Origin: Bacteroidales bacterium
GTDB taxonomy: Bacteria > Bacteroidota > Bacteroidia > Bacteroidales > Dysgonomonadaceae
Reading direction: 5' to 3'
Length of the DNA: 37,978 nt
NCBI GenBank assembly: GCA_012727735.1
Contig: JAAYGM010000095.1
Location: forward strand, 1-37,978
This document shows positions 14,937-35,426 of the stretch, piece by piece. A program made the translations under genes and the position numbers. Positions within the stretch are counted from its first letter, which is position 1; each line of letters opens with the position of its first letter. The notes beneath the pieces were generated by a model. It did no database searches. It was not told the origin of the DNA and worked only from the letters and a program-made list of their open reading frames with translations.

Positions 14937-17900
14937 ATGAGAAAAAAAATCAACATTTTTTTATTCCTGTTCTTTGTGGGTACAGGAATTCTTATCGCAC
15001 AGACCCGTGTGACGGGGAGTGTGGTGGATGAAGGAGGCGAACCTGTTATCGGGGCAACCATTCAGATAAAAGAGACAGGACTGGGAACAGTCACCGATAT
15101 GGACGGAAACTTCTCGTTGACTGCCCCTGCGGAGGCAACACTTGTTATATCGTATGTGGGTATGGTGACAGTAGAAGCGGTAGTGAGCCCTAATATGCTG
15201 ATTGTTCTTCGCTCAGATACCGAACAACTCGATGAAGTGGTGGTTGTAGGGTATGGTACGCAACGAAAAGCAAACTTAACAGGAGCGGTATCTACCGTGG
15301 ATGTGAGTAAAACGCTGGAAGCGCGTCCTTATTCTGATATCTCAAAGGCACTGCAAGGTGCTGTCCCCGGTTTATCAGTGATCAGCAGCAGCGGCAGGCT
15401 GGGTGCGCAACCCTCTGTGTCTATACGTGGTCTGGGGACTTTGAGCAATAATGCGACAAGTAACCCGCTGATAGTCGTGGATGGTGTGGCTATGGAAGAT
15501 ATTTCTTTGTTGAATACACAGGATATTCAGAATATTTCTGTGTTAAAAGATGCCGCTTCCACTTCAATTTACGGTACAAGGGCTGCCTTTGGTGTGATTC
15601 TTATCACCACCAAGTCAGCACAACAGGTTGACAGGGTATCTGTGAATTATACAAATAACTTTGCATGGGATACACCGACCATTCTTCCCGATTATCCGGA
15701 CGTGCCCAGTCAGCTGAATGCTTTAATAGCTGCGAATGAGCGTGCCGGTCTCGCCAATGAGCTGTTTGGTATGTACCTGGATGAGATGTTGCCATATGCT
15801 GAATTGTGGAGAGACCAGCACAACGGCAAGAAAGCGGGATACCGTGAAATGGTTCTGGGGAACAGAGATGCACTTACAGACAGCTCAAAGCCTCTGGGTG
15901 ACTTCATGCTGGACAACAATGGTGTAGGGATGTACTTCGCCGACTGGGATATGAAGAATATCATGTTCAGGCAATGGAAACCATCACAGAGTCATAATCT
16001 GTCTGTACAGGGAACCAGTGGAAAAACATCCTACTATATGTCGTTGGGACATAACCATGATGAGGGTGTGATGGCGTTTTATCCGGAGAAACTGAATAAG
16101 TGGACGGCCATGCTGAATGTATCCACCGATGTCAGAGAGTGGTTGCAGGTGGGAGCACGTTTTAATTACAGCAATAAGGATTTTCAGGGCCCTGCAACAA
16201 GGAGAACCACCTACCAGTATATGTGGCGATGGGGAAGCTTCTTCGGTCCCTACGGAACCTATCAGGGGACAGATTTCCGGAATGATATTGCTTACCGCAA
16301 ACAAGCCGGAGACTGGACTGACAACAACAGTTTCGTGCGCATGGGAGCTTTCGCAAAGGCAACCTTAACAGAAGGGTTCACATTGAATGCTGATTACACC
16401 CATAACGTGGAGAACTACACCTATAAGGCAGCATACATACCGCTGGGAGGGTGGAACTCATGGGGTGGAGCAATTACAGAACCCATTAATTATACCAGCA
16501 GTTCATGGCTTGAACAACAGTCGAGTCAGAGTAAATCATTCGCCCTTAATGTGTATGGTAACTATGAGTTTAGTGTAGCAGACACGCATAATTTCAATTT
16601 TATGCTGGGAGCCAATGCGGAAAGCGGGACCTACTTCAATCATTATTCCGAAAGAGATGATCTGCTTGACTATAATCTGCCGGAATTTGATCTGGCTACA
16701 GGAGCACAATATGTAGACGGTGCTCATTCACACTGGGCTACAGCCGGTTATTTCGGCCGTCTCAACTATGATTATAACGGGATCTGGCTACTGGAAATGA
16801 ACGGGCGCTATGATGGTTCATCCCGTTTTCCGGCGAACGACCGATGGGCATTCTTCCCATCGGCATCAGCCGGATACCGGATCAGTGAAGAGTCATTTTT
16901 TGAACCATTGCATGATGTGATCAGTAACGCCAAGATACGTGCTTCGTATGGGGAGATAGGTAACCAGGCTGTGGGGAGCAACATGTATCTTGCGACCATG
17001 GCAAAGAGGACATTGAACAATACCTATTGGTTGGCCGATGACGGGACCAAAGTGGTGGCTTATGATCTGCCCAAACTGGTTTCATCGACCCTGAAATGGG
17101 AACGGATTCAGACACTGGATTTCGGAGCAGATCTGGGGTTTGTGAATAATGAACTGAATATATCTGTTGACTGGTACCAGAGAACCACGAAAGATATGCT
17201 GGCACCGGGTCAGACGATGCCGCAGGTACTCGGAGCAACTGCTCCGTATGTCAATGCAGGTACCTTAAGAACCCGGGGATGGGAATTAAGTGTTGACTGG
17301 CGTCATCGTTTCAATGATGTGATGGTTTATGCCAATGCCAATATTGGCGACTTTGTAACCGATGTGGTAAAATGGGAAAATGAGACCAAACTGTTGAATC
17401 AGAACTATAGCGGTAAAAGGTATGGTGATATCTGGGGATTCGAAACCGATCGCTACTTTACGGATGATGATTTTAATGCAGACGGAAGTTATAAAGCAGG
17501 TATCGCTTCTCAGGAGGAGCTGGAACAGGGTACATTCGTCTTTGGCCCCGGAGATATCAAATTCAGGGATCTGGATGGAAACGGTGTAATAGGTGGAGGA
17601 ACAGGAACAGCCGACGACCATGGTGATTTAACAGTGATAGGTAACTTCACACCAAGGTTCCAGTATGGTTTTCGTTTAGGTGGTGAATGGAAAGGCTTTG
17701 ACCTGGACATGTTCTTTCAGGGTGTCGGAAAACGTGCCATGTGGACACAGAGTGCTTTTGTGATGCCTATGATGCGTGGCGCTGATGCCATCTACGCCAA
17801 TCAGACAAACTACTGGAGCGAAGAGAATAAAGATTCAAATGCCGATTATCCACGTCTGTTCCCGGGAAACGCGGGCAGAGGGACGATCTCAGTCCTTGAG

Positions 17901-18200
17901 CTTGGGAATCACAACTTCTATCCCCAAACAAAATATATTGTGAACATGGCCTATTTGCGATTTAAGAATCTCACCCTGGGTTATACCTTGCCTGTGGATT
18001 TTTCCTCGAAAATTTATATGCAGAAAGCAAGAGTTTACTTCAGTGCAAATAATTTACTGGAGTTGATCAATAAAAGTAATGCTCCTGTGGATCCGGAAGT
18101 GAATGATAAGGAGGAAGGTGTCAGTTTGGGAAATGCAACATGGGGAAGAATTGATCCGATGTACAGAACTGTTTCTTTTGGTGTTCAACTGACATTTTAG
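14937..18200 (+). CDS. SusC/RagA-family TonB-dependent outer-membrane transporter (pair 1)
   Basis: SusC proteins are 22-strand barrels that import oligosaccharides or peptides across the outer membrane with TonB energy, capped by a SusD lipoprotein. Order of parts: signal peptide to about residue 21 (...LIAQ), carboxypeptidase-regulatory-like domain about 23-95, the SusC signature LDEVVVVGYGTQ at 98-109, plug domain about 110-225 (GAVPGLSV, IRGLGTLS, SIYGTRAAFGVI), then barrel to the C-terminal phenylalanine (VSFGVQLTF). A DLDGNGVIGGG segment is typical of the family. There is no STN domain, so it is not wired to an anti-sigma factor. Length 1087 is usual. susD1 follows after 28 bases. The substrate is not evident. 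Base composition is clearly lower in G+C than that of pair 2. Confidence 0.96.
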   Translation: MRKKINIFLFLFFVGTGILIAQTRVTGSVVDEGGEPVIGATIQIKETGLGTVTDMDGNFSLTAPAEATLVISYVGMVTVEAVVSPNMLIVLRSDTEQLDEVVVVGYGTQRKANLTGAVSTVDVSKTLEARPYSDISKALQGAVPGLSVISSSGRLGAQPSVSIRGLGTLSNNATSNPLIVVDGVAMEDISLLNTQDIQNISVLKDAASTSIYGTRAAFGVILITTKSAQQVDRVSVNYTNNFAWDTPTILPDYPDVPSQLNALIAANERAGLANELFGMYLDEMLPYAELWRDQHNGKKAGYREMVLGNRDALTDSSKPLGDFMLDNNGVGMYFADWDMKNIMFRQWKPSQSHNLSVQGTSGKTSYYMSLGHNHDEGVMAFYPEKLNKWTAMLNVSTDVREWLQVGARFNYSNKDFQGPATRRTTYQYMWRWGSFFGPYGTYQGTDFRNDIAYRKQAGDWTDNNSFVRMGAFAKATLTEGFTLNADYTHNVENYTYKAAYIPLGGWNSWGGAITEPINYTSSSWLEQQSSQSKSFALNVYGNYEFSVADTHNFNFMLGANAESGTYFNHYSERDDLLDYNLPEFDLATGAQYVDGAHSHWATAGYFGRLNYDYNGIWLLEMNGRYDGSSRFPANDRWAFFPSASAGYRISEESFFEPLHDVISNAKIRASYGEIGNQAVGSNMYLATMAKRTLNNTYWLADDGTKVVAYDLPKLVSSTLKWERIQTLDFGADLGFVNNELNISVDWYQRTTKDMLAPGQTMPQVLGATAPYVNAGTLRTRGWELSVDWRHRFNDVMVYANANIGDFVTDVVKWENETKLLNQNYSGKRYGDIWGFETDRYFTDDDFNADGSYKAGIASQEELEQGTFVFGPGDIKFRDLDGNGVIGGGTGTADDHGDLTVIGNFTPRFQYGFRLGGEWKGFDLDMFFQGVGKRAMWTQSAFVMPMMRGADAIYANQTNYWSEENKDSNADYPRLFPGNAGRGTISVLELGNHNFYPQTKYIVNMAYLRFKNLTLGYTLPVDFSSKIYMQKARVYFSANNLLELINKSNAPVDPEVNDKEEGVSLGNATWGRIDPMYRTVSFGVQLTF

Positions 18201-18228
18201 ATTTTCAAATATCTTAAAACAAAGAAGT

Positions 18229-19959
18229 ATGAAGAAATTAAATATCATCTACATGATGTCGTTAGCCATGATCTTATCGGCATGTAACGATTTTTTGGAC
18301 AAGGGGCCGCTCGATACATTTACCAATGATAACTTCTGGACCAGTGAAAGTAATGTCAATGGTTATGCCAATACATTTTATCAGGACTTCACCGGTTACG
18401 GAAATGCCGGTGGTTCAGGATTGTTTTATTTCAGGACGTTATCGGATGATCAGGCCGGCAACAGTTTTGCCGACTGGACCTACCAGAATGTTCCGGCAAG
18501 CAGCAGCACCTGGGGAGATGGATGGGTAGAGATACGACGAGCCCATATTCTTCTGGAAAATGTGGACAAAGCAGCTATGAGTGATGAGGCCAAGAACCAC
18601 TGGAAAGGAGTAGGCCGATTAATGCGGGCATGGCATTATTATCAGCTGGTACGTACCTATGGCGATGTGCCCTGGGTTGATAAATCACTTGATATTACGG
18701 ATGAGGGATATCTCTATGGCAGCCGCGAGAACAGAGACGGAGTGATGGATAAAGTGCTTGAAGATCTTAATTTTGCATGTGAGAACATGTATGATAATGG
18801 ATCCAAAACCAGGTTCAACCGGAATGTGGCTTATGCGATGAAGGCTGAGATCACCCTTTATGAGGGAACCTTCCGTAAATACCGCAAAGCAGAAGATGGG
18901 CAATCAGCGCCTGATGCAACAGGAGCAAACAGGTTCCTGAATGAAACCAAAGCAGCTGCAGCCTATCTGATGGGTAAATCTTTTGCACTGAACAGCTCCT
19001 ATCAGGGGAATTACAATTCTACCGATTTAGGCAGCAACCCGGAGATGATCTTTTACAAGGCATATAAACAGAACGTTTTACATCACTCTCTGATTGCATA
19101 CATCAGTTCATCCACCCAGTTGAGCGGAATGACCAGGGATGCTTTTGAATCCTATCTGTTCACCGACGGCAAGCCCCTGGCATTGACCACCCTCGACAGT
19201 GATGATGCCGCCAGGATGTTTGTTGGCACAAAAATGGTGGCAGGTGTAGAGGTACCGGACACTGTGCTTTCCATCACACATCTGCTGGCTGTTCGTGATA
19301 AGCGCCTTTCAGAAACGATTGATACGGCACTTTGTTACGTGGACCGGGGGTTTACCCGTTACGGAAGCGGTATCTCCATGACCTCATCCACCGGTTACGG
19401 CGTGAGTAAATATGATAACAAAAGCCTTGATAACATGTACCGCAATCAGACAAGTCAGAATTTCACCCATGCACCTGTATTCTGGTTGTCCGTGGTTTAT
19501 CTGCAGTATGCTGAAGCGTGTGCCGAGCTGGGAAATGCCACTCAGGCTGATCTGGATAATTCAGTGAACAAGCTGAGAGCCAGGGCAGGCATCCCTCCCC
19601 TTACTGTCACTGTCGGCTATTCTGATCCTGCAAACAATATGAACGTAAGTGATTTGATCTGGGAGATACGGCGTGAACGACGTACAGAGCTTATGTTTGA
19701 CAATTGGTCCCGTTACTGGGATCTGATCCGCTGGCATCAGCTTGATAAGCTTGACTCGTCAGTTCATCCTTCTATTTTACTTGGTGCCAATATTGTGAAT
19801 GATCCCTATAACAACTCGGTGGATAAGGTGGGTAATTATATTGACGGCAGCAAGGAGAAAACACGTCAGTATGAATCGAAACATTACTGGTACCCGATAC
19901 CATCAGATCAAATAGCTTTAAATCCTCAATTATCACAAAATCCAGGGTGGGGTAATTGA
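18229..19959 (+). CDS. SusD/RagB-family outer-membrane lipoprotein (pair 1)
   Basis: SusD-like proteins sit as a lid on the SusC barrel at the cell surface and bind glycans through aromatic residues. The 576-residue product has a lipoprotein signal with LSAC and Cys19, then the SusD N-terminal signature FLDKGPLDTFTNDNFW, a TPR-like scaffold (HWKGVGRLMRAWHYYQLVRTYGDVPWV) and the C-terminal SusD region with IRRERRTELMFDNWSRYWDLIRW and YPIPSDQIALNPQLSQNPGW, all family hallmarks. It is 28 bases behind susC1, and a terminator follows, so pair 1 forms a closed transcription unit with no linked enzyme. Confidence 0.96.
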   Translation: MKKLNIIYMMSLAMILSACNDFLDKGPLDTFTNDNFWTSESNVNGYANTFYQDFTGYGNAGGSGLFYFRTLSDDQAGNSFADWTYQNVPASSSTWGDGWVEIRRAHILLENVDKAAMSDEAKNHWKGVGRLMRAWHYYQLVRTYGDVPWVDKSLDITDEGYLYGSRENRDGVMDKVLEDLNFACENMYDNGSKTRFNRNVAYAMKAEITLYEGTFRKYRKAEDGQSAPDATGANRFLNETKAAAAYLMGKSFALNSSYQGNYNSTDLGSNPEMIFYKAYKQNVLHHSLIAYISSSTQLSGMTRDAFESYLFTDGKPLALTTLDSDDAARMFVGTKMVAGVEVPDTVLSITHLLAVRDKRLSETIDTALCYVDRGFTRYGSGISMTSSTGYGVSKYDNKSLDNMYRNQTSQNFTHAPVFWLSVVYLQYAEACAELGNATQADLDNSVNKLRARAGIPPLTVTVGYSDPANNMNVSDLIWEIRRERRTELMFDNWSRYWDLIRWHQLDKLDSSVHPSILLGANIVNDPYNNSVDKVGNYIDGSKEKTRQYESKHYWYPIPSDQIALNPQLSQNPGWGN

Positions 19960-19980
19960 TAAGAAGGAATATCCTCAGAG

Positions 19981-20023
19981 AAAGAGGACGTTTCATAATA
20001 AACCATGAGACAGCCTCTTTTTT
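19981..20023 (+). terminator. Rho-independent terminator after susD1
   Basis: Arms 19981-19996 and 20005-20020 pair over 7 bp (AAAGAGG/CCTCTTT), a 2-base internal mismatch and 7 more pairs including one G-U, around an 8-base loop, followed by T residues to 20023. It lies 21 bases past the susD1 stop and separates pair 1 from pair 2. Confidence 0.8.
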
Positions 20024-20230
20024 GTCGTCTTATTGAACAATGACGATATTCAGATGTTTATTAACTTGAATATAGTTGTCAAAATATATTTATTTTGGCA
20101 TGTTTAATGTAACTTTGACCTTTGAATGTGATTATTCGTTTTGGTCTGGAACTACTTATTGAGAGCTACTTAAAGCTAAATATCTGATTTTGGTCTGGTT
20201 GTTTTTTTATTAAACTTTAATAATGTTCGT
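20024..20230 (+). promoter_or_regulatory. susC2 upstream region: -7 box and 11-bp direct repeat
   Basis: These 207 bases hold no gene. A -7 match TAACTTTG lies at 20110-20117 (no -33 at good spacing; TTTG at 20094-20097 is too close). Downstream, the 11-mer TTTTGGTCTGG occurs twice, at 20139-20149 and 20188-20198, 49 bases apart start to start. Such a direct repeat could bind a regulator such as a hybrid two-component or AraC-type protein encoded elsewhere. If transcription starts near 20124 the repeats lie in a leader of about 105 bases; alternatively the true promoter is further downstream. Confidence 0.45.
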
Positions 20231-23200
20231 ATGAGAAAGAAAATCACTTTTTTGTTGTTCCTCCTGATACTGTCGGTATGTGCACTGGATGCACAAACCC
20301 GTGTCAGAGGAAATGTGACAGATGAAACGGGAGAACCGGTTATCGGTGCATCCGTGCAAATCAGTGGTACAGGACTGGGAACAGTGACCGATGTAGATGG
20401 TAACTTTTCCCTCACGGCTCCCGACGATGCCACCCTGATATTCTCCTTTGTGGGGATGAGAACAGAGGAGTTAGCGGTAAGATCCTATATGCAGGTTGTG
20501 CTGCAAGTTGATGCCGAGCTGCTGGAAGAGGTGGTTGTGGTGGGATACGGCACGCAGAAAAAGGCCAACCTCACAGGAGCTGTTTCAACCGTGGATGTCA
20601 ATGAAGCGGTTGCGAGCCGTCCTGTAACTGATATAGCCAAGGCACTGCAGGGTGTCTCTCCGGGACTGATCATCACCAATAATCTCGGAGGTGTCGGTAC
20701 TGAGTCGACCATCCGTTTGCGCGGATCGGTTGGTTCGATCAATGCAACCGGTGGTACCTCACCCCTGGTCCTGGTGGATGGTGTGGAGGTTCCCAGCCTC
20801 AACCTGATCAATCCCAACGACATTGAGACCATCTCGGTACTGAAAGATGCAGCTTCTGCCTCCATCTACGGTACACGAGCCGCCTGGGGGGTGATCCTGA
20901 TCACCACAAAGCAGGGAATTGATGGCGTAACGCGGGTCACCTATTCCAACAATTTTGCCTGGAGCACCCCCACCGTTATGCCTGAGATGATGTCCACCGT
21001 GGAGAATGCGGAGTATATCATGAAGGTGACGCATCGTATTGACCCCACCCGCAACGTGGTCTCCAGCATCGGTTATTCTATTGATGCCACTGCCATCGGA
21101 AGAATGAAGGAGTGGGAAGAGAAGTATGGCGGGATGAGCCAGTCGGAACTGGGGGAGATGCTTGAAGGACGTGACTTTGAAATCAGGGACGGACGCACTT
21201 TCTTTTACCGATCCTTCGATCCGCTGGCGATGTTTACCAAAACATGGACTCCCCAGCAGAACCACGATTTCTCACTTACCGGCAGCAGCAAAAGTACCTC
21301 TTATAACATCGGCATGGGTTATCTGCGCCAGGACGGGGTGATGAAGATCAACACAGACCGGTATGACCGCTACAACATCACCTCCAACACCACAACCACC
21401 ATCAAGGATTGGTGGAAGGTACGCAGCAACCTGATGTATACCCGCATGGAAAACAGTGAGCCCTATCGCTACACCTCCGGGCAGTACGACGCCTGGTTCT
21501 ACCTGATGCGCTGGCCGCGCTGGTATCCCTACACCACCTACGAAGGGCGTGACTTCCGCTCTGCTGTGACCGACCTGAAGCAGGCAGGCAGAGAGAGCAC
21601 AGGCACCAACTATGTCAGGGCAAATATCGGGACAGAACTGATCCCCTTCAGGAACCTGACATTTAACTTCGATTATACCTTCAGCTTCTGGAATCAGTAC
21701 CAGAAACGCAACGGGGGGATTGTGGAGGCCTATGACATGTTCTCTACCGCTCCATTCAGTACCTACGGGAGCCTCTACGGAGCTACCCATAACAGGGCAG
21801 TGCAAACCAGCCGCTACACCATTTCCAACATATTCAAGGCCTATGCCACCTATAACCTGCAACTGATAGAAAAACACAATTTCAAGCTGATGGGCGGAAT
21901 GGATGCTGAGACGCGGGAACGGCTGGGACATTACTCAGAACGAAGGGAACTGATCGATATCAATATGCCGGAGATCGCCCTGGCCACCGGCGAACAGTAT
22001 GTCAACGGGGTGGCATTTCACAACGATTTTGCCGCTGCAGGCTTCTTCGGTCGCATCAACTACGACTATCTGCAAAAGTATCTGCTGGAGGTGAATGCCC
22101 GTTACGACGGATCCTCGCGCTTTCCTGCCGGAAAGAAATGGGCCCTTTTCCCCTCCGCATCGGTGGGATGGCGTCTCTCTGAGGAACCGTTTATGGATTG
22201 GGCACGTCCCTTCCTGAGCAACCTGAAACCCAGGGCCTCCTGGGGTACCATCGGTAACCAGGATGTGGCATCCAACTCCTTCATCTCAACCATGGCGTCG
22301 GGCAACTCCGGCTGGGTGATGAACGGTGAGAATGTGCTTTATCTCGGCTCACCCTCCGTGATCTCTGCCGACCTTACCTGGGAGAGGGTCACCACCACCG
22401 ATATCGGTGTGGATGCCGGCTTCCTGGATAATCGTCTCACACTGGTGTTTGACTGGTACCGGCGTGTCACCTCCGATATGCACACAGCAGGAGAAGCATT
22501 ACCTTCCACCTTTGGCGGATCGGCTCCCCGGATCAACTTTGGTGAGCTGACAGCCACCGGTACCGAGCTGGGTGCCGCCTACCGGCATCAGTTTGCCGGG
22601 GGACTGTCGATGAATCTGAGAGCCTCCCTCTCCAGCGTGAAAGAGGAGATCACCCGTTTCAACGAGAGTGACAACTATATCTATGGTAACTATCAGGGGC
22701 GCATGCTGGGTGAGATATGGGGCTACGAGACAGACCGCCTGTTTCAGGAGGATGACTTCAATAGCGACGGAACACTGAAGGATGGGATTCCCTCCCAGGC
22801 ATTGTTTGAGAGCGGTGCCTTCACCTATGGACCGGGCGATGTGAAGTACAGGGACCTGAATGGTGACGGTGTGATCAACTACGGCAGCAACACCACCGAT
22901 GACCATGGTGACCTGAAGGTGATCGGCAACACCCTGCCGCGCATGGAGTATAATTTCGGGATCGACCTGGCATATGAGAACATCGATTTCAGGGCATTCT
23001 TCCAGGGTGTAGGCTCACGTGACTACTGGGCTTACGGCAGCGTGGGTATTCCTTCCGGCGGCTCCGGATATGCCGAGGCAGCCTTTAAACATCAGCTGGA
23101 CTACTGGACGCCCGACAACAGGGATGCCTTCTATCCCGCACCTACCAATAACGCATGGATCAGCAACGGCACCAACTTCCTGCGACAGACCCGATTCCTG

Positions 23201-23458
23201 CAGAACATGGCCTACCTGAGGCTGAAGAACCTTACCATCGGCTACCGGTTGCCGGCAGCCTGGATGCAGTCGCTCAAATTTCAGAGTGCCCGTCTCTATC
23301 TGAGTGGTGAGAACCTCTTTGAGATTGATCATCTCACGGTACCGGTAGATCCGGAGAGTACCGACTACAAGGTGGGATATGGCAGCGGCAGCTGGTCTTT
23401 CGGACGCAGCTACCCCTTTGCCCGTACCCTTTCTGTGGGAATGCAAATACAGTTTTAA
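20231..23458 (+). CDS. SusC/RagA-family TonB-dependent outer-membrane transporter (pair 2)
   Basis: This 1075-residue SusC paralogue has the same architecture as the one in pair 1, colinear without gaps over the first 120 residues: signal peptide ending ALDAQ, carboxypeptidase-regulatory-like domain from about 23, LEEVVVVGYGTQ at 98-109, plug with VSPGLII, IRLRGSVGS and SIYGTRAAWGVI, and barrel ending in VGMQIQF. Again no STN domain is present. The barrels diverge more, so the two transporters may take different ligands. Sampled lines give 55-58% G+C (35 of 60 in 22081-22140; 33 of 60 in 21721-21780), well above pair 1. susD2 follows after 18 bases. Confidence 0.96.
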   Translation: MRKKITFLLFLLILSVCALDAQTRVRGNVTDETGEPVIGASVQISGTGLGTVTDVDGNFSLTAPDDATLIFSFVGMRTEELAVRSYMQVVLQVDAELLEEVVVVGYGTQKKANLTGAVSTVDVNEAVASRPVTDIAKALQGVSPGLIITNNLGGVGTESTIRLRGSVGSINATGGTSPLVLVDGVEVPSLNLINPNDIETISVLKDAASASIYGTRAAWGVILITTKQGIDGVTRVTYSNNFAWSTPTVMPEMMSTVENAEYIMKVTHRIDPTRNVVSSIGYSIDATAIGRMKEWEEKYGGMSQSELGEMLEGRDFEIRDGRTFFYRSFDPLAMFTKTWTPQQNHDFSLTGSSKSTSYNIGMGYLRQDGVMKINTDRYDRYNITSNTTTTIKDWWKVRSNLMYTRMENSEPYRYTSGQYDAWFYLMRWPRWYPYTTYEGRDFRSAVTDLKQAGRESTGTNYVRANIGTELIPFRNLTFNFDYTFSFWNQYQKRNGGIVEAYDMFSTAPFSTYGSLYGATHNRAVQTSRYTISNIFKAYATYNLQLIEKHNFKLMGGMDAETRERLGHYSERRELIDINMPEIALATGEQYVNGVAFHNDFAAAGFFGRINYDYLQKYLLEVNARYDGSSRFPAGKKWALFPSASVGWRLSEEPFMDWARPFLSNLKPRASWGTIGNQDVASNSFISTMASGNSGWVMNGENVLYLGSPSVISADLTWERVTTTDIGVDAGFLDNRLTLVFDWYRRVTSDMHTAGEALPSTFGGSAPRINFGELTATGTELGAAYRHQFAGGLSMNLRASLSSVKEEITRFNESDNYIYGNYQGRMLGEIWGYETDRLFQEDDFNSDGTLKDGIPSQALFESGAFTYGPGDVKYRDLNGDGVINYGSNTTDDHGDLKVIGNTLPRMEYNFGIDLAYENIDFRAFFQGVGSRDYWAYGSVGIPSGGSGYAEAAFKHQLDYWTPDNRDAFYPAPTNNAWISNGTNFLRQTRFLQNMAYLRLKNLTIGYRLPAAWMQSLKFQSARLYLSGENLFEIDHLTVPVDPESTDYKVGYGSGSWSFGRSYPFARTLSVGMQIQF

Positions 23459-23476
23459 CCCAAATAGAACAACGAT

Positions 23477-25264
23477 ATGAAACGAATCATTCTGTTATTC
23501 ACAACAGCCCTTATACTTTTCGGTTGCGAGGATTACCTGACACGCGACCCGCTTGATACGATCACCGACACCCCTGCCTTCTGGAACAATGAGAACAACA
23601 TCAGAACCGTTGCGGTGGGTTTGTATGATCAGTACTTTGAAGGATGGAGAAGCGGCTGGTCACGTACCGACTGGTATGCGGAAACCAACGTGGCCGACTG
23701 GACCGATGACAATGCACAACGGGTAGCCACCTACTTCACCAAGGTGACACCATCGACCGATGGCACCAACTGGAGCTTTACCAACCTGCGCAGGGTGAAT
23801 ATCCTGATCGACAGGGTGGGGAAGACCACTGCGTTGAGTGAGGAGGCGAAGAACCACTGGCAGGGTGTAGGCCGCCTGTTCCGCGCGCTCGAGTATTATA
23901 AGCTGGTCTCCCGTTTTGGAGATGTACCCTGGTACGATGCTCCCCTGGAGAGCAATGATCCTGATGGACTTTATCAACCCCGTCAACCCCGTGCCCAGGT
24001 GATGGACAAGGTGGCGGAAGATCTTGATTTTGCCGCTAAGAATATCCGTATCAGTGACGGTGTCAAGGGGCTTACCGTCACCAGGGATGTGGCACTTGCC
24101 TATACCTCCCGGGTGATGCTCTTTGAAGGGACATGGCAGAAATACAACGAGAACAACAGTGAAGCGGCACGGAGATACCTCACCATTGCGAAGGATGCTG
24201 CTGCAACATTGATGCAGAGCAATCGTTACAGCCTGGCACCCGACTATAAGTCGCTGACCACCTCCATTAGTCTGGCTGGTAACCCGGAGATGATCCTCTA
24301 CCGTGAGTATGAGACCAGCGTGCTGACACACAGCCTCATGTCGTTCCAGAACACGGAGGCAGAAGGAAGCAGTCCCTCGCGGAGCCTGATAGAGAGCTAT
24401 CTTTCCACCAACGGCCTGCCTATTACGCAGCCGGAAAACAGCCTTTTCAGGGGAGACGACTGGTTCTTCGACGAGATCGCCGACCGTGATCCCCGACTGC
24501 ATGCCATCATCGATACCGATGGGTTGCGGCTCGAGGGTGTTCATACCATTTATGCTGCATCGGGTTATTTCACCAACCGTTTTGTGAATGAGTCGCTGAT
24601 AGATGATCCCGGCGGTAAGAGCAGCACCAATATCACCGATGCTCCGGTGATGAAGCTGAACGAGGTGCTGATGAACTACATTGAGGCTGCAGCCGAGCTG
24701 GCTGATCTGGGTGCCTATACCCTGGTGCAGTCTGATTTTGACAACAGTATCAACAGGATTCGTGACCGGCCGAGCACCTCGATGCCGCATCTCACCCTTG
24801 CCGGCAATCAGCTGATGGTGGGTGGTGTCACCCTGAACGATCCGTCCCGCGATGCCGATGTCTCACCCATCCTCTGGGAGATACGCCGTGAACGACGCAC
24901 CGAACTGGTATATGAGGGGATCCGCTTCAATGACCTGCGGCGCTGGGGAAAGCTGGAGTATGCCGATATGGCGATCAACAGCAAGCTGAACCTCGGTGCA
25001 TGGATAGACAAGGAGCGGTATGTGACATGGTACAATGAGACCTATGCTCCCTCAACACCACTGACGCTTTCCAGTCTCGATCCCATCAAGCTTGACAGGG
25101 CAGGTAATGCCGGATACCTCAAACCCATTTCCGACGCCTCCCTGCTGCGTGTTCATGCCGCGAAGGATTACCTTTATCCCATCCCGCTCGACCAGATTGC
25201 ACTCTACAAGACCAAGGGTGTCACGCTGGCTCAGAATCCCGGCTGGGAGACGGTTAGCAACTGA
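23477..25264 (+). CDS. SusD/RagB-family outer-membrane lipoprotein (pair 2)
   Basis: This 595-residue SusD-like glycan-binding lipoprotein has lipobox LFGC with Cys17 followed by acidic residues (CED), compatible with surface display. Family features are YLTRDPLDTITDTPAFW at the N-terminus, HWQGVGRLFRALEYYKLVSR with FGDVPWYD, IRRERRTELVYEGIRFNDLR and YPIPLDQIAL near the C-terminus. It would cap the SusC2 barrel. The GH9-deacetylase gene lies 90 bases downstream behind a hairpin, so enzyme and binding protein may be coexpressed at different levels. The ligand is unknown; the neighbouring enzyme suggests a beta-linked polymer or amino-sugar glycan. Confidence 0.96.
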   Translation: MKRIILLFTTALILFGCEDYLTRDPLDTITDTPAFWNNENNIRTVAVGLYDQYFEGWRSGWSRTDWYAETNVADWTDDNAQRVATYFTKVTPSTDGTNWSFTNLRRVNILIDRVGKTTALSEEAKNHWQGVGRLFRALEYYKLVSRFGDVPWYDAPLESNDPDGLYQPRQPRAQVMDKVAEDLDFAAKNIRISDGVKGLTVTRDVALAYTSRVMLFEGTWQKYNENNSEAARRYLTIAKDAAATLMQSNRYSLAPDYKSLTTSISLAGNPEMILYREYETSVLTHSLMSFQNTEAEGSSPSRSLIESYLSTNGLPITQPENSLFRGDDWFFDEIADRDPRLHAIIDTDGLRLEGVHTIYAASGYFTNRFVNESLIDDPGGKSSTNITDAPVMKLNEVLMNYIEAAAELADLGAYTLVQSDFDNSINRIRDRPSTSMPHLTLAGNQLMVGGVTLNDPSRDADVSPILWEIRRERRTELVYEGIRFNDLRRWGKLEYADMAINSKLNLGAWIDKERYVTWYNETYAPSTPLTLSSLDPIKLDRAGNAGYLKPISDASLLRVHAAKDYLYPIPLDQIALYKTKGVTLAQNPGWETVSN

Positions 25265-25280
25265 CCAAATGTGATGTAGG

Positions 25281-25320
25281 AAGGGGTTGTGTCGTCTCAA
25301 TAACGGTACAACCTCTTTTT
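25281..25320 (+). terminator. Hairpin terminator or attenuator between susD2 and the GH9 gene
   Basis: A 10-bp stem (25281-25290 with 25308-25317, one G-U) with a 17-base loop is followed by T residues to 25320. It lies in the 90-base gap of an otherwise codirectional unit. No TAnnTTTG box is seen between it and the GH9 ATG, so partial read-through is the simplest way to express the enzyme. Confidence 0.65.
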
Positions 25321-25354
25321 CTATTGATGAACAGAAACATCTAAATCAAAACCA

Positions 25355-27832
25355 ATGAAGAGACGACAGATTGTATTGTTTTTATTCTCTTTTTTCCTTT
25401 GCCTCCGGATCGCAGCAACCGAACAAAGCTGGATCCGCGTGAACCAGGTGGGTTATCTGGAGGATGATGTGAAGGTGGCTGTCTGGATCAGCAAGGGAGA
25501 GGGCGAGGTAACCTCTTTTGAACTACTCGATGCTGTTTCAGGGGAGCAGCTCTTCAGCAGCAGCGAGGTGAAACAAACCGGCCCGCTCTGGTCGTTCAGA
25601 CAGACGGCCCGTCTCGATTTCTCCGCTTTCACCGTTCCCGGCACCTACATCATCAGAGCCCATGGCGTGCAATCGGTCCCATTTAAGATAGGCAACGATA
25701 TTTATGCCGGTGCGGCGGAGATACCACTCAAGTATATGCGTCAGCAGCGTTGTGGGTACAATCCCTTCCTGCGTGACTCCTGTCATGTGCATGATGCCAT
25801 CTCTGTGGGTGATCCTGACGGAGAAAGAGACGGCCTGTATTTCAACACCACCGGCGGGTGGCACGATGCCTCCGATTACCTGCAGTATGTAGCCACGTCG
25901 GCCAACGCGGTTTATCAGATGCTCTTTGCCTACAGCCGCTATCCTGAAGCTTTTGGTGACCACTACGATGCCAACGGTCATGAAGGTGCCAACGGTATCC
26001 CCGATATCCTGGATGAGGCGAAATGGGGGCTGGACTGGCTGGTGAGGATGAACCCTGATTCTGCCACCTACTTCAACCAGCTGGCGGACGACAGGGATCA
26101 TGCGGGCTTTACGCTGCCCAACGAGCAGCAGGTGGATTACGGCTGGGGGGCAGGGATGGAACGACCCGTCTATTTTGTCAGTTCAAAGCCACAGGGGTTG
26201 TTCAAATACACCAACCGGAGTACAGGCATGGCCTCTACACTGGGCAAGTATGCTTCCTCCTTCTCGCTGGGAGGCAGGGTGCTGGCAGATTATTATCCCG
26301 GGTTTGCGGAGCTGTTGCAACAGAAAGCGGCAGATGCCTACCGGAAAGGAGCGGAGAACCCCGGTGTCTCACAGACTGCACCCGGCGGGGCACCCTATTT
26401 TTATGAAGAGGATAACTGGGCGGATGATATGCAGCTGGCGGCTGCAGAGATGTACCACACCTTCAGTGAGGGAGCATACCTGCAGCAAGCTGTGAACTAC
26501 GGACGGCTGGAGCCGGTGACACCATGGATGGGTGCCGACTCGGCACGGCATTACCAGTGGTACCCTTTTGTGAACCTGGGTAACTACCATCTGGCGGTGC
26601 AGCACGATGACCTCCGTGCACGGAAGGAGTTTATCCGCAATATGAAAAGCGGACTGCAGCGCGTGAAGGAGAGGGCAGGGGGGAATGCTTTCCTGCACGG
26701 GATACCCTTTATCTGGTGTTCCAATAACCTGACGGTGGGCTTTGTTACCCAGTGCCGTCTCTACCATGAGATCACCGGCGATGACGCTTTCCTGGAGATA
26801 GAGACAGCCATGCGTGACTGGCTCCTGGGCTGCAATCCCTGGGGGACATCCATGATCGTGGGCTATCCTTCACACGGCGATACGCCGGTTGATCCCCATT
26901 CTGCCTTCACCCATCTCCGGCAGATACCGGTCACCGGCGGTATCGTGGATGGTCCCATCTATCATTCCATCTTCAGCCGCCTGATAGGGATCTACCTGGC
27001 GAACGAGGATGCGTATGCACCCTTCCAGTCAGACTACGTGGTGTATCACGATGACTATGCCGATTACTCCACCAACGAGCCCACCATGGATGGTACCGCC
27101 TCGCTCACTTATTATCTCGGTTACCTGACATCCAGAGCAGGACATCCGACCAGGGTGGAGGGAGGAGTAGTACGGGGCGACAGCACCAGAAAGCAGCTCT
27201 CGCTGGTCTTCACCGGACATGCATATGCCGATGGTGCTGAGGTGATCATGAACGTGCTGGAGATGAACGATGTGAGAGGCACCTTTTTCCTTACCGGCGA
27301 TTTCTACAGGAAGTTCCCAGCCATCGCCCGTGGTTTGCAGAAAGAGGGGCACTACCTTGGACCCCATTCCGACAGGCATCTGCTCTATGCCGATTGGCTG
27401 AAGCGGGATTCCACGCTGGTTACACGGATGGATTTTGAGAAAGACCTCAGGGATAATTACCTGGCGATGGAGAAAGAAGGAGTGAAGAATGACATGCCAC
27501 AATATTTTATGCCACCCTATGAGTGGTACAACAGAGAGATCAGCGACTGGGCCGGCGCGATGGGGGTAAAGCTGGTGAACTTCACACCGGGAACAACCTC
27601 CAACGCCGATTATACCACACCGGAGATGAAGAATTATCTCTCTTCGGAGACCATCTACCGCCATATCATGGCGTATGAAGAGCGTGAGGGACTGAATGGT
27701 TTCCTGCTGCTGATGCATATCGGGACGGATCCCGAACGAACGGATAAACTTTACAACAGGCTGGATGAGCTGATTAAAACGTTGCAAAGAAGAGGGTATC
27801 AGTTCGTAAGAATAGATGAGTTGTTAAAATAG
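25355..27832 (+). CDS. Secreted GH9 glycoside hydrolase fused to a NodB/CE4-like deacetylase domain
   Basis: This 825-residue exported protein has a signal peptide (MKRRQIVLFLFSFF...), an immunoglobulin-like CelD_N domain at about 25-110 (WIRVNQVGYLEDD), a GH9 catalytic domain at about 120-600, and a NodB-type domain at about 605-825. In GH9 the catalytic base pair is in GGWHDASDY (Asp171, Asp174) and the acid is Glu575 in TNEPTMDG. In the C-terminal domain the metal-binding HSDRH (671-675), the MPPYEW loop (719-724) and LLLMHIG are kept, but the first motif TFDDG reads VFTGH (618-622) with an Asp at 626. GH9 includes endoglucanases, cellobiohydrolases and exo-beta-glucosaminidases; CE4-type domains remove N- or O-acetyl groups. 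Together they suggest an acetylated beta-glycan or chitin-like substrate, an inference. G+C is high (39 of 60 in 26341-26400). Confidence 0.9.
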   Translation: MKRRQIVLFLFSFFLCLRIAATEQSWIRVNQVGYLEDDVKVAVWISKGEGEVTSFELLDAVSGEQLFSSSEVKQTGPLWSFRQTARLDFSAFTVPGTYIIRAHGVQSVPFKIGNDIYAGAAEIPLKYMRQQRCGYNPFLRDSCHVHDAISVGDPDGERDGLYFNTTGGWHDASDYLQYVATSANAVYQMLFAYSRYPEAFGDHYDANGHEGANGIPDILDEAKWGLDWLVRMNPDSATYFNQLADDRDHAGFTLPNEQQVDYGWGAGMERPVYFVSSKPQGLFKYTNRSTGMASTLGKYASSFSLGGRVLADYYPGFAELLQQKAADAYRKGAENPGVSQTAPGGAPYFYEEDNWADDMQLAAAEMYHTFSEGAYLQQAVNYGRLEPVTPWMGADSARHYQWYPFVNLGNYHLAVQHDDLRARKEFIRNMKSGLQRVKERAGGNAFLHGIPFIWCSNNLTVGFVTQCRLYHEITGDDAFLEIETAMRDWLLGCNPWGTSMIVGYPSHGDTPVDPHSAFTHLRQIPVTGGIVDGPIYHSIFSRLIGIYLANEDAYAPFQSDYVVYHDDYADYSTNEPTMDGTASLTYYLGYLTSRAGHPTRVEGGVVRGDSTRKQLSLVFTGHAYADGAEVIMNVLEMNDVRGTFFLTGDFYRKFPAIARGLQKEGHYLGPHSDRHLLYADWLKRDSTLVTRMDFEKDLRDNYLAMEKEGVKNDMPQYFMPPYEWYNREISDWAGAMGVKLVNFTPGTTSNADYTTPEMKNYLSSETIYRHIMAYEEREGLNGFLLLMHIGTDPERTDKLYNRLDELIKTLQRRGYQFVRIDELLK

Positions 27833-27873
27833 TTGTTTGAGCCGAAGTTTAAGGAGTTCCATTGTTTTTTTCC

Positions 27874-27881
27874 TATTTTTG
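27874..27881 (+). promoter_or_regulatory. Candidate -7 box for the PBP4 gene
   Basis: TATTTTTG matches the Bacteroidota -7 consensus 26 bases before the dacB-like ATG, placing the transcript start near 27888. No good -33 is present. It suggests that this gene is transcribed separately from the GH9 gene, although no terminator lies between them. Confidence 0.4.
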
Positions 27882-27906
27882 TATATAAACAAAAGCTATT
27901 GATCGT

Positions 27907-29373
27907 ATGAAAAGAGCATTTGCCTTTACGAATTATTTAAAAATGAACCTCCTGTTGCTCACGCTCCTGCTGCTTATATCTCCCACCTTTGCACAGACAG
28001 CTTTGCAGCGTTTCGTCAATCATCCGGCGCTGAAGCATGCTTCGGTGGGCATCGCGGTGACCGATCTGGAGACAGGCAGGAGGATCGTGTCGCACAACGG
28101 AGAGCAATCGCTCACACCCGCATCTGTTTTAAAACTGATCACAACAGCTACGGCCATTGAAGCATTCGGTGAGAATTACAGGTACAAAACCGATGTGGCG
28201 CTCGATGCGGGTGATCCCTCACGCATCCTGGTGATCGGATCAGGCGATCCCACACTGGGAAGCGAGGCCTTTGATGATCATCCCAGCACCTTTTTTACAA
28301 CTGTGGCTGATGCTCTCAGAGAATCACTACCCTCCGACAGTGCGTATTCGCTCTATGTGGTGGACAACCTGTTTGGATATGATGGGATATCGCCGGAGTG
28401 GACCTGGATTGATATGGGGAACTACTACGCCGCGGGTGCCTACGGCATCAGCATCTTTGATAACAGCTATAAGCTCTTTTTCAATACGACGGCGAAAAAC
28501 GGTTGTCCGCGTATTCTCCGGACGGAACCTGAGATCAAGGGATTGACCTTTCAGAACAGTCTGTCACTGAACAGCAATGGACGCGATAACGGCTATATTT
28601 ATGGTGCTCCCTTCTCTTACGAGAGAGCGGTGAGGGGAGACATCCCCGCGGGGAGAACGGAGTTCAGCATCAAAGGAGATATACCCGACCCGGGATTGTT
28701 GCTGGGTGAGACACTGGCCGGTTATCTCAAACGCGCCGGATTGAAGGTAGGCAAAGTGGAGACAGCCCGCACCGACTATCTTTCAAAGTATTGCAGCCCA
28801 GAGAGGTTAGGTCGATACCAGGTTGGGAAGGTACTTTGTACCTTTGTTTCACGCCCGATGAAAGAGATCATCCGTGAGGTGAATGTGGAGAGCAACAATC
28901 ACTTTGCCGAACATCTGATTCGTTCCACTGGGAGAAAGAACAGGAGTGATATTTATGAGGATGCGTTGGAGGCAGGTGTCACCTATGTACAGGATTTCTG
29001 GAAAAGCAAGGATCTTACAACAGCCTCGCTGCAGATGCATGACGGTTGTGGTCTGGCACCCCAGAATGCGGTGAGCCCCCGGTTTCTGACCGATCTGCTG
29101 GTTTATATGTATAGCAAGAGTGATAAGTCATCTGATTTCTTCGATTCACTCCCGAAAGCAGGAGAGGAGGGGACGCTCAGAACATTCCTCAGGGATACAA
29201 GACTGAGCGGTAAAATAGCAGCCAAGAGTGGCAGTATCGGAGGGGTGCAGTGTTATTCCGGATATCTGATCGATGGAAGAAAGAAATATGCTTTCACCGT
29301 GATGGTGAATAAGTTCAATGGTACGCGTTCTGAGGTGAGAGGTGCGATTGAACAGTACCTGCTGAATTTGTAA
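27907..29373 (+). CDS. dacB: D-alanyl-D-alanine carboxypeptidase/endopeptidase, PBP4 family (S13)
   Basis: This periplasmic serine enzyme trims the terminal D-Ala and cuts D-Ala-mDAP cross-links of peptidoglycan. A hydrophobic signal follows the N-terminal KRAFAFTNYLK segment and ends near SPTFAQ. The three active-site motifs are present: SVLK at 73-76 (Ser73 nucleophile, Lys76), SNN at 329-331, and KSG at 440-442 in place of the usual KTG, a substitution also found in other low-molecular-mass enzymes. The long insertion between the first two motifs is typical of S13. At 488 residues the length is normal. It follows the GH9-deacetylase gene by 74 bases in the same direction but appears to have its own -7 box; a strong bidirectional terminator follows. 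Confidence 0.94.
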   Translation: MKRAFAFTNYLKMNLLLLTLLLLISPTFAQTALQRFVNHPALKHASVGIAVTDLETGRRIVSHNGEQSLTPASVLKLITTATAIEAFGENYRYKTDVALDAGDPSRILVIGSGDPTLGSEAFDDHPSTFFTTVADALRESLPSDSAYSLYVVDNLFGYDGISPEWTWIDMGNYYAAGAYGISIFDNSYKLFFNTTAKNGCPRILRTEPEIKGLTFQNSLSLNSNGRDNGYIYGAPFSYERAVRGDIPAGRTEFSIKGDIPDPGLLLGETLAGYLKRAGLKVGKVETARTDYLSKYCSPERLGRYQVGKVLCTFVSRPMKEIIREVNVESNNHFAEHLIRSTGRKNRSDIYEDALEAGVTYVQDFWKSKDLTTASLQMHDGCGLAPQNAVSPRFLTDLLVYMYSKSDKSSDFFDSLPKAGEEGTLRTFLRDTRLSGKIAAKSGSIGGVQCYSGYLIDGRKKYAFTVMVNKFNGTRSEVRGAIEQYLLNL

Positions 29374-29394: not shown

Positions 29395-29424
29395 AAAGAG
29401 CCTGCAGCTACCTGCAGGCTCTTT
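29395..29424. terminator. Bidirectional terminator between dacB and the FKBP gene
   Basis: A 13-bp perfect stem (29395-29407 with 29412-29424) closes a 4-base loop between two convergent genes. The downstream T runs are short on both strands, but the stem is the most stable in this part of the window. Confidence 0.8.
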
Positions 29425-33299: not shown

Positions 33300-35426
33300 A
33301 TGAAAAAATTATTTTTATCGCTGGCAATCTTTTTTGTAGCGATTATCGCGAGAGGCGATGAAGGAATGTGGCTTCTGAAAGAGCTTAACAGGGAGAGTGC
33401 AGCCCGAATGCAGGAGCTGGGGTTTACCTTTCCGGTGAACAAACTGTACAGTGAGAAAAATCCGTCGCTGAAAGATGCGGTGGTGATCTTCGGGGGAGGA
33501 TGTACCGGGGTTGTGGTCTCTGACAAGGGTTTGGTGTTCACCAACCACCATTGCGGATATGGCGCCATTCAGAAACTGAGTGCTGTGGAACATGACTATC
33601 TGAAGGATGGTTTCGCTGCAAAAAACAACGCCGATGAACTCCATGCCGATGGGTTGACGGTTTCGTTTTTAAGGTCGATGGAGGATGTGACCGATCAGAT
33701 TGCACCCCAGGTGCCGTTGGTGCTGAGCGAGATACAGCGTGAGCTGGCGATCGATTCCATCTCCGACGAGCTGATTAAGAAATATGAAGATGATCCATTT
33801 ACCACAGCACGGGTGGTCCCTTTCTACTCCCGCAACAGATATTATGTGGTACTCTATGACGTCTTTCGTGATGTACGGCTTGTTGTTGCTCCACCCTCGT
33901 CGGTGGGTAAGTTTGGCGGTGACACCGACAACTGGATGTGGCCCCGCCATACAGGAGATTTCTCCTCTTTCCGTGTCTATGCCGGCAAGGATAACAAACC
34001 GGCAGATTACAGCCAGAGCAATGTGCCCTATAAGCCCAGATATGTGGTTCCGGTATCACTGACAGGGGTTACAGAAGGTGATTATGCCATGACCGTGGGA
34101 TACCCGGGCAGCACGCAGCGCTATATCTCCTCATGGGGGATACGCCAGAGAATGGAAGCTGAGAACAAACCACGTATAGAGGTACGCGGTGCCAAGCAGG
34201 CGATCTGGTGGGATGCCATGACCCGGAATGATACCATCCGCATCAAATATGCGAGCAAATTTGCAGGGAGTTCCAACTACTGGAAGAACTCGATGGGGAT
34301 GAACGAAGCGCTCACCAACCTGGGTGTGCTGGCAGAGAAAGAGGAGCTGGAAGGACGTTTGAACAGCTGGATCAATAGCAGCCCTGCCAATAAGGCCAGG
34401 TATGACAGTACGCTCGTCATGCTGAGAGATACCTACACAGGGTCAGATAAAATGTCGCTATACACCACCTATTTTCTGGAGACGTTCAATAACGGTATCG
34501 AGTTGATCCGTTTTGCCAACACGATCCTCCGTTTCGATACGGAAGGCACGGAAGCGGATAAGCAGGCATTCATCAACGATCGCCTGATAGAGTCTTACAA
34601 GAACTACGAGCCGAAACTGGACAGGAAGGTGTTGCCGGTGCTGATGAAGCTCTATGCCGAACGCATACCTGAACAGTATCTTCCCGATATTTACAGTAAG
34701 ATCAATGATGAGTTTGGCGGAGATTACGAGAAATATGCCGACTGGTTGTTCACAAACAGTAAGTTTACTTCACTCGATTCATTGATAGAGTTATTGAAAA
34801 GTGCAGATACACAGGAGCTGACAAAAGACCCGGCGATGGAGCTGGCACTCTCCACCACCGATATGGGTTATGAACTCTCGGGACAAATGATGTCATCCTA
34901 TGAGAAGATTCTCCGTGGTGAACGTGAGCTGATGGCTGCACTGATGGAGATGGATGCGGACAAAACTTTCTACCCTGACGCTAACTTCACGCAACGGATG
35001 AGTTATGGAACGGTAGAAGGTTACTGGCCGCGTGATGCTGTCTGGTACAATTATTATACCACCTCAAAGGGTATCATGGAGAAACAGAAGCCGGGTGATC
35101 CCGAGTTCAATGTACAGGATTACATCCTGGATGATATCCGTTCAAATGATTTCGGCCCATATGCCGATAAGGATGGTGTGTTGCGGGTTAACTTCCTTTC
35201 GAACAACGATATCACCGGTGGTAACTCAGGAAGCCCCGTGTTCAACGGAAAGGCGGAACTGGTGGGTCTGGCCTTCGACGGCAACTGGGAGTCGCTGAGT
35301 GGTGACATCCTCTTTGAGCCGGAGATGCAGCGCACCATCAGCGTAGACATCCGTTACGTACTCTATATGATAGACAAGGTGATGGATGCACCGCACATCG
35401 TGAAAGAGTTGAAGATGACCAGGTGA
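33300..35426 (+). CDS. S46-family dipeptidyl peptidase, DPP7-like
   Basis: S46 enzymes are periplasmic serine exopeptidases of Bacteroidota that release dipeptides from oligopeptides. The 708-residue protein has a signal peptide (MKKLFLSLAIFF..., cleaved near ARG/DEG), the catalytic-His region FTNHHCGYGAIQ (His83/His84), the GGDTDNWMWPRHTGDF block with the catalytic Asp, and the nucleophile Ser643 in GGNSGSPVF. The residue 18 positions after the serine, which is Arg in the acidic-specific DPP11 type and Gly in DPP7, is Gly661 (FDGNW), so preference for hydrophobic P1 residues is likely. The C-terminus ISVDIRYVLYMIDK is a family signature. A bidirectional terminator follows. It complements the M49 peptidase at 564-2633. 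Confidence 0.95.
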   Translation: MKKLFLSLAIFFVAIIARGDEGMWLLKELNRESAARMQELGFTFPVNKLYSEKNPSLKDAVVIFGGGCTGVVVSDKGLVFTNHHCGYGAIQKLSAVEHDYLKDGFAAKNNADELHADGLTVSFLRSMEDVTDQIAPQVPLVLSEIQRELAIDSISDELIKKYEDDPFTTARVVPFYSRNRYYVVLYDVFRDVRLVVAPPSSVGKFGGDTDNWMWPRHTGDFSSFRVYAGKDNKPADYSQSNVPYKPRYVVPVSLTGVTEGDYAMTVGYPGSTQRYISSWGIRQRMEAENKPRIEVRGAKQAIWWDAMTRNDTIRIKYASKFAGSSNYWKNSMGMNEALTNLGVLAEKEELEGRLNSWINSSPANKARYDSTLVMLRDTYTGSDKMSLYTTYFLETFNNGIELIRFANTILRFDTEGTEADKQAFINDRLIESYKNYEPKLDRKVLPVLMKLYAERIPEQYLPDIYSKINDEFGGDYEKYADWLFTNSKFTSLDSLIELLKSADTQELTKDPAMELALSTTDMGYELSGQMMSSYEKILRGERELMAALMEMDADKTFYPDANFTQRMSYGTVEGYWPRDAVWYNYYTTSKGIMEKQKPGDPEFNVQDYILDDIRSNDFGPYADKDGVLRVNFLSNNDITGGNSGSPVFNGKAELVGLAFDGNWESLSGDILFEPEMQRTISVDIRYVLYMIDKVMDAPHIVKELKMTR

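Follow-up and report, generated by a model that had tools for sequence, protein, structure and literature searches.

We analyzed a 37,978-nucleotide (nt) stretch of DNA from a Bacteroidales bacterium of the Dysgonomonadaceae (the window; positions 1 to 37,978 of the forward strand of contig JAAYGM010000095.1, assembly GCA_012727735.1). It contains a gene, at 25355..27832 on the + strand, in which a glycoside hydrolase family 9 (GH9) domain is fused to a NodB-like domain with the fold of carbohydrate esterase family 4 (CE4). We propose, with a probability of about 0.6, that this gene encodes a secreted two-domain enzyme with a remodeled CE4 site, which would serve the salvage of the peptidoglycan sugars N-acetylmuramic acid (MurNAc) and N-acetylglucosamine (GlcNAc) in Bacteroidota. 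The protein architecture, the fold, the conservation across the family, and the gene context in relatives were all established by computation.

A GH9 domain with an altered PHHR motif is fused to a NodB-fold domain

The fusion protein has 825 amino acids (aa), begins with ATG and reads by eye as secreted, with a Sec signal peptide at its N terminus (MKRRQIVLFLFSFFLCLRIAA). The signal peptide is followed by a CelD_N immunoglobulin-like domain (25421..25675, aa 23 to 107; PF02927, E 1.6e-20), the GH9 catalytic domain (25703..27118, aa 117 to 588; PF00759, E 4e-66), and the NodB/CE4-fold domain (27161..27826, aa 603 to 824), all on the + strand, the last being supported by its model, fold match and conservation. 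The original prediction, namely, a secreted polypeptide joining a complete GH9 domain to a deacetylase-like domain, thus describes a real fusion, with Pfam hits for both parts. The GH9 profile is covered in full (1 to 444 of 444; 224.6 bits versus a cutoff of 27.7), and the catalytic residues that had been named, Asp171, Asp174 and Glu575, are present and identical in all 140 GH9 domains compared, that of the window included.

The PHHR motif of GH9 enzymes holds glucose at subsite -1. Where five solved GH9 sequences have PHHR, the window protein reads P514-H515-S516-A517 and lacks this cellulase-type substrate site. The change extends to the family, in which His515 is found in 139, Ser516 in 135, and Ala or Ser at position 517 in 136 of the 140 domains. 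If the role of the motif at subsite -1 applies, the replacement of PHHR by PHS points to a substrate other than plain glucan, and we classify the protein as a GH9 member whose subsite is altered. Grouping with cellulases would be weak evidence about the substrate, since the solved entries nearest in sequence are of the endoglucanase type and yet the HR of PHHR is gone.

The NodB fold of the C-terminal domain is secure. Residues 625 to 740 match Polysacc_deac_1 (PF01522) with an E value of 1.9e-11 and 44.4 bits, against a gathering score of 23.1. The domain, modeled alone from an alignment of 23 sequences, gave a predicted local distance difference test score (pLDDT) of 92.3 and a predicted template modeling score of 0.91, and its predicted (beta/alpha)-barrel is closest to the solved structure of BA0150 (Z 26.4, root mean square deviation 1.6 over 196 residues), with other CE4 entries next. 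The ADYTTPEM loop is the least certain region of the model (block mean 63), and the fold searches report no residue geometry. In the full-length model the mean pLDDT was 72.3, with residues 495 to 575 below 50, and domain orientation was left out of the analysis because of this poor quality.

The active site of the NodB-fold domain is rebuilt across the family

Canonical CE4 motif 1, TFDD, supplies the base Asp and the metal Asp. The window protein contains VFTGH (618 to 622), HSDRH (671 to 675), MPPYEWYN (719 to 726), ADYTTPEM (751 to 758), LLMHIG (785 to 790), and Arg795. This agrees with what had been noted from the sequence, i.e., a replacement of TFDDG by VFTGH with HSDRH and MPPY retained and the next Asp at 626, and the alteration proved to be family-wide. 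Conservation was assessed in 160 NodB domains from Bacteroidota, including that of the window; L025 and L207 were left out as too short. The position of the base Asp is occupied by Thr in 148 domains and Ser in 12, that of the metal Asp by Gly in 126, Ala in 33, and Ser in 1, and neither Asp of motif 1 is kept in any domain. Position 622 is Asp in 80, His in 70, and another residue in 10 domains, and position 623 is acidic in 149, with Ala in the window copy alone. The Arg of motif 3 (RxP[YF]), the loss of which had gone unmentioned, is likewise found in 0/160, position 719 being Leu (83), Ile (42), Met (27), or Val (8). Both His residues of motif 2 (H[ST]xxH) and His788 of motif 5 (LxxH) are present in all 160 domains. 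Identical throughout are His671, His675, Asp697, Glu723, Asp752, Tyr761, His788, and Arg795, of which Glu723 immediately follows PPY.

Local decay as an explanation for the change in motif 1 was rejected, as both Asp residues are gone throughout the 160 domains. Because the loss of motif 1 is accompanied by the same pattern of invariant residues in all 160, we consider the site rebuilt and not drifting. Asp626, which had been put forward as a replacement ligand, fared less well: its column contains Asp in 106, Glu in 43, and other residues in 11 domains, whereas Glu723 and Asp752 are invariant. Although that column is acidic in 149/160 domains, its variation led us to reject Asp626 as the sole replacement. 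The invariant His671, His675, and His788, together with Glu723, Asp752, and Arg795, argue for a working site over a binding module. The C-terminal half has the CE4 fold, lacks two of the canonical motifs, and is at most a putative CE4 enzyme.

Cell wall salvage genes recur near the gene in relatives

The fusion gene of the window is preceded by two SusC/SusD pairs and followed by a gene for penicillin-binding protein 4 (PBP4). The same-genus set comprises 16 further loci, 17 in total with the window. PBP4 follows in 7 of the 17, one of which (L053) has GH9 without NodB, and a golvesin-domain gene is next to or fused with the gene in 9; L049 has neither. After the golvesin gene we found, variously, glycosyltransferase, SpoIID, MFS, NamZ, DUF5009-type, BadF-type, and SIS genes (the DUF5009 and BadF matches being under the cutoff), and further neighbors in relatives include GHL10 and subthreshold kinase or transporter matches. 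In L061 the order is SusC, SusD, GH42, a NodB-golvesin fusion, glycosyltransferase, NamZ, MurT-like, MurK-like, and MurQ.

These gene types, which in same-genus relatives follow GH9-NodB or NodB, resemble those of the Tannerella forsythia ampG-murTKQ operon (Tanf_08345 to Tanf_08385; excerpts of PMC5388701). The operon order is given, in excerpts of PMC5388701 and PMC7670621, as xanthan lyase, glycosyltransferases, amidase enhancer, AmpG, YbbC, MurT, MurK, and MurQ, and by order the golvesin-domain protein is the counterpart of its "xanthan lyase." Since the gene order matches this published operon, we refer to genes as MurT-, MurK-, and AmpG-like, a likeness by order with subthreshold or general family matches. 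In contrast to the relatives, the GH9-NodB gene of T. forsythia itself lies on the contig of the operon, ~13 to 15 kb away and on the opposite strand. According to published abstracts, this species relies on cell wall salvage for its MurNAc.

MurQ is also found near the gene elsewhere. Matches to MurQ models adjoin the gene in three loci (L131, L126, and L015) and occur at a distance of ~5 kb in the cluster of L060. The SIS gene concerned passes the MurQ equivalog cutoff in L131, L126, and L060, whereas in L015 it passes two of three MurQ cutoffs. In family f28 we surveyed 61 genomes, a hand-chosen, nonrandom subset of 109, and in 47 of these 61 MurQ begins no more than 300 nt downstream of NodB, in the same orientation. 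This adjacency follows genus, with 40/40 genomes in g30, 4/4 in g208, 3/3 in g198, and 0/14 in five other genera, 3 of these 14 having MurQ within 12 kb. As all 61 genomes contain MurQ, only its position is informative. The suggestion that the targets are amino sugars is consistent with this context in relatives, which makes peptidoglycan their likelier source.

In the MurQ clusters of L131 and L126, a metallophosphatase-beta-propeller gene lies directly before GH9 (L131:5185-7029 and L126:8478-10319), and DUF4623 recurs in L050 and L131.

A programmed -1 frameshift is predicted in relatives

Relatives were retrieved as 23 loci in a genome-contig search, from 41 genomes in a sample of 395 across the phylum (E 1e-40), and from 109 of 301 genomes of family f28. 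Among 61 genomes near that of the window, 43 gave hits at a loose E value of 0.001, many of the weak ones to different CE4 or GH9 genes. In the set of 109 from f28, we inspected all 53 genomes with an open frame of <450 aa and 35 of the other 56. Among 168 loci there were 85 in-frame fusions, 60 with NodB at -1, 2 with NodB at +1, 20 with no GH9 on the same strand in the preceding 1.5 kb, and 1 without NodB (L053). Five loci, all -1, were dropped as repeated genomes (L132, L137, L143, L151, and L152), after which 55 of 57 split loci were at -1 and 2 at +1. Also dropped were L055 (+1, gap of Ns), L129 (+1, having a separate GTG start that overlaps the stop codon of GH9), and L207 (-1, with an incomplete NodB). 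The 54 split loci retained are 51 from f28 (eight genera) plus L018, L054, and L117, so that NodB at -1 behind a slippery site was found in 51 of the 109 matching f28 genomes.

In all 54 loci the overlap contains A AAA AAR, read in frame with GH9 (42 AAAAAAG and 12 AAAAAAA), and in 39 of them the GH9 stop directly follows the heptamer. GGAGG ends 9, 10, or 13 nt upstream of the heptamer in 36/54, and the combination GGAGG-N8..16-AAAAAAG occurs in 36/54 split loci versus 3/85 fused ones. When the last 40 codons were synonymously recoded by the codon usage of each gene (200 draws), the heptamer survived on average in 15.3 of 54 loci (maximum, 23), and the heptamer with GGAGG in 0.66 (maximum, 3). 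Just upstream, Glu is encoded by GAG 59 times and by GAA 3 times, compared with 459 and 792 gene-wide. Related species are not independent, but when the split state is mapped onto a quick tree it has to change 18 times, and well-supported branches force at least 6 of these changes. On these sequence features we predict a dnaX-like programmed -1 frameshift in relatives that yields GH9 alone and GH9-NodB. L054, from the genus of the window, is a poly-A case with a possible ATG and was left out of this claim, and the linker of the window gene contains no slippery heptamer, being a plain in-frame fusion.

A hairpin of 6 bp located 5 nt after the heptamer is shared in g45 by 5 split and 2 fused loci that were picked for showing it. 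Of its cells, 97.6% are paired and two pairs are altered on both sides; shuffles equaled its covariation score in 15/500 and its both-side changes in 85/500 cases, so that support for it is modest. Over the 54 loci, the 42 nt downstream fold only slightly better than shuffled sequences (mean z -0.9), and the hairpin is therefore not general.

Pattern searches of 16S rRNA 3' ends for the anti-Shine-Dalgarno sequence (anti-SD) matched 2/12 and 0/12 genomes, an uninformative outcome as the patterns were perhaps wrong. The E. coli dnaX frameshift also has an SD-like element and a hairpin. The relatives resemble it in A AAA AAG, in the SD-like element ~10 nt upstream and, in some, in a 3' hairpin; they differ in that their gene encodes a secreted Bacteroidota enzyme, which the shift would extend by an entire domain where dnaX is truncated. 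Excerpts of PMC5009743 give the dnaX slippery site as A_AAA_AAG and state that, among chromosomal genes without an origin in mobile elements, a small number of cases of conserved frameshifting are known. Frameshifting in a GH9-NodB gene was not seen in the titles and abstract beginnings listed or in the passages found in PMC3711429 and PMC5009743. An SD-like stimulator would be notable, as Bacteroidia ribosomes are reported to have an occluded anti-SD and generally to ignore SD sequences, and prfB frameshifting with an SD-like element to be kept in all Sphingobacteriales analyzed (excerpts of PMC8710568).

That the -1 offset is instead a sequencing error, a sign of gene decay, or a re-initiation junction appears improbable to us. 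The 12 poly-A loci have longer, indel-prone A runs, some of which may reflect slippage during transcription or polymorphic indels, and GGAGG might serve re-initiation. No ATG, GTG, or TTG precedes the domain in the NodB frame in 44/54 loci; 10 do have one, and extending the count into the domain by 15 codons leaves just 15/54 without a start codon, so that internal starts clipping the domain are possible. The median ratio of nonsynonymous to synonymous substitutions (dN/dS) of NodB is also higher in split-gene (0.12; 43/50 pairs with dS defined) than in fused (0.07; 81/105) relatives. Against these readings, selection downstream of the junction is purifying, 42 of the 54 loci have just six As (A AAA AAG), several of them in single-contig genomes, the offset is -1 in 55 of 57 split loci, and GGAGG accompanies the heptamer in 36/54 loci, compared with at most 3 after recoding. 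Furthermore, a re-initiated NodB would lose the signal peptide and often part of the first strand.

Among close relatives, the NodB proteins of L191 (split) and L217 (fused) are nearly identical, with the difference at the A-run junction, which is a further point in favor of an artifact. Fused sisters (L147 and L150, compared with L104 and L161 to L163) keep GGAGG, the hairpin, and an A run longer by one base. In these fused sisters, slipping might have the opposite effect to that in the split genes and produce GH9 without NodB.

Proposed function and alternatives

In the mechanism that we favor, the GH9 half would cut a glycosidic bond in a glycan derived from the cell wall, and the NodB half would modify the same amino sugars at an acyl group, most likely by removing an O- or N-acetyl that otherwise blocks cleavage, uptake, or phosphorylation. 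The remodeled site would keep His671 and His675, with His788 as the likely acid and Glu723 and Asp752 in place of the lost aspartates. In the relatives of one family, the NodB half would be added by the predicted programmed -1 frameshift, giving both GH9 alone and GH9-NodB. What we infer here are the substrate, the acyl chemistry, the metal, and the efficiency of frameshifting. The wider proposal, which we rate at slightly better than even odds, is that of a widespread, nonmobile, secreted Bacteroidota enzyme family with a NodB half that uses a new CE4 site based on Glu723 and Asp752. In one family (eight genera), and apparently also in a few lineages outside it, dnaX-like programmed -1 frameshifting would attach NodB and keep GH9 and GH9-NodB at a fixed ratio in the salvage of peptidoglycan sugars.

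Several observations weigh against peptidoglycan salvage by an active enzyme. The neighbors in the window are SusC/SusD and PBP4, with MurQ and the golvesin gene on other contigs; MurQ is absent within 12 kb of the gene in 11 of the 61 f28 genomes; and in Chitinophagaceae and several other loci the annotated neighbors have no visible cell wall role. Both canonical CE4 aspartates and the Arg of motif 3 are missing, and the claims on activity, substrate, and metal are predictions for this protein. The same absence in all 160 domains would suit a catalytically dead NodB half that binds glycan and targets GH9 to the cell wall. The top Foldseek match points the same way: it is an entry for BA3943 (Z 23.5 to 24.6), which shares the fold and is called a CE4 pseudoenzyme by its PDB title, the only basis on which it is noncanonical here. 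We nevertheless consider a dead module unlikely, as the HxxxH histidines, the His of motif 5, and further charged residues are invariant in the 160 domains, beyond what binding alone would need, and NodB persists without GH9 in several lineages and in fusion with unrelated partners.

This persistence is seen in six same-genus genomes with NodB but without an intact GH9 beside it (G001, G004, G012, G021, G031, and G036), one of which (G021) has lost the GH9 core and retained the signal peptide and NodB. In the same genus, the gene is split in G008, G029 has a broken GH9 and an assembly gap, and G017 has GH9 without NodB. NodB stands behind a class A beta-lactamase-like domain (PF13354) in place of GH9 at L124:7620-9524 (+), is fused to a golvesin-domain protein at L060:159-3887 and L061:9167-12976, and forms a separate gene directly before GH9 in L009 and L100.

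An enzyme for plant or microbial beta-glucans, i.e., an endoglucanase of family GH9 coupled to an acetyl esterase that acts on acetylated glucans, would fit the solved GH9 structures nearest in sequence, namely, endoglucanase 3x17, J30 (5u2o), and the xyloglucanase BoGH9A (6dht), as well as the SusC/SusD genes beside the window gene. A GH42 gene in two same-genus loci, L047 and L061, may indicate galactans. We regard this assignment as very improbable: the HR of PHHR is replaced across the family, no glycan hydrolase other than GH42 and GHL10 was recognized among the annotated neighbors (a part of all neighbors), and MurQ, NamZ, SpoIID, and PBP4 recur nearby. A plant glycan locus as first choice was rejected on these recurrent salvage neighbors in relatives.

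Compared with known enzymes, the family shares the fold, HSxxH, PPY, and LxxH with CE4 deacetylases of the PdaB/PdaA type (BA0150 and Bc1960), and differs from them in lacking both motif-1 Asp residues and the motif-3 Arg and in its invariant Glu723 after PPY. The best deacetylase model match is PdaB (TIGR02764, E 6.1e-20), with 71.8 bits far under the cutoff of 237.4. With the GH9 endoglucanases named above it shares a full GH9 domain and the catalytic Asp/Asp/Glu, in contrast to its PHS[A/S], its C-terminal NodB domain, and its cell wall gene context. In titles and the beginnings of abstracts, no GH9-NodB or GH9 peptidoglycan enzyme was evident. If the proposal is correct, a GH9 clade and a CE4-like clade that general models label only GH9 or polysaccharide deacetylase enter cell wall salvage, and the remodeled site offers a test of how a metal-dependent deacetylase fold can swap its acidic residues while remaining strictly conserved. 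Dozens of natural variants, with sister species alternating between slipping and plain fusion, would then form a useful natural experiment.

Other features of the window

The SusC, SusD, and PBP4 genes and the stem described here are on the + strand. The first pair upstream consists of a SusC-like TonB-dependent receptor (14937..18200, profile search) and a SusD-like protein (18229..19959; PF07980, E 1.3e-37), and the second of a SusC/RagA outer membrane receptor (20231..23458; TIGR04056, E 5.9e-248) and a SusD-like lipoprotein (23477..25264) that ends 90 nt upstream of the fusion gene. The latter has a weak match to NF033072, far under the cutoff, and clusters with the Pfam-recognized SusD at 18229. 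The gene for PBP4, a D-Ala-D-Ala carboxypeptidase-endopeptidase (27907..29373; TIGR00666, 147.8 bits versus a cutoff of 107.8), starts 74 nt downstream of GH9-NodB and is followed by a terminator-like stem of 13 bp (29395..29424), the longest of 14 found in the scanned stretch, a number that equals chance (14.2 expected from shuffles). The two longest stems bracket 14937-29373. Finally, 33300-35426 encodes a Dpp7-like dipeptidyl-peptidase (1037.8 bits versus an equivalog cutoff of 1200).

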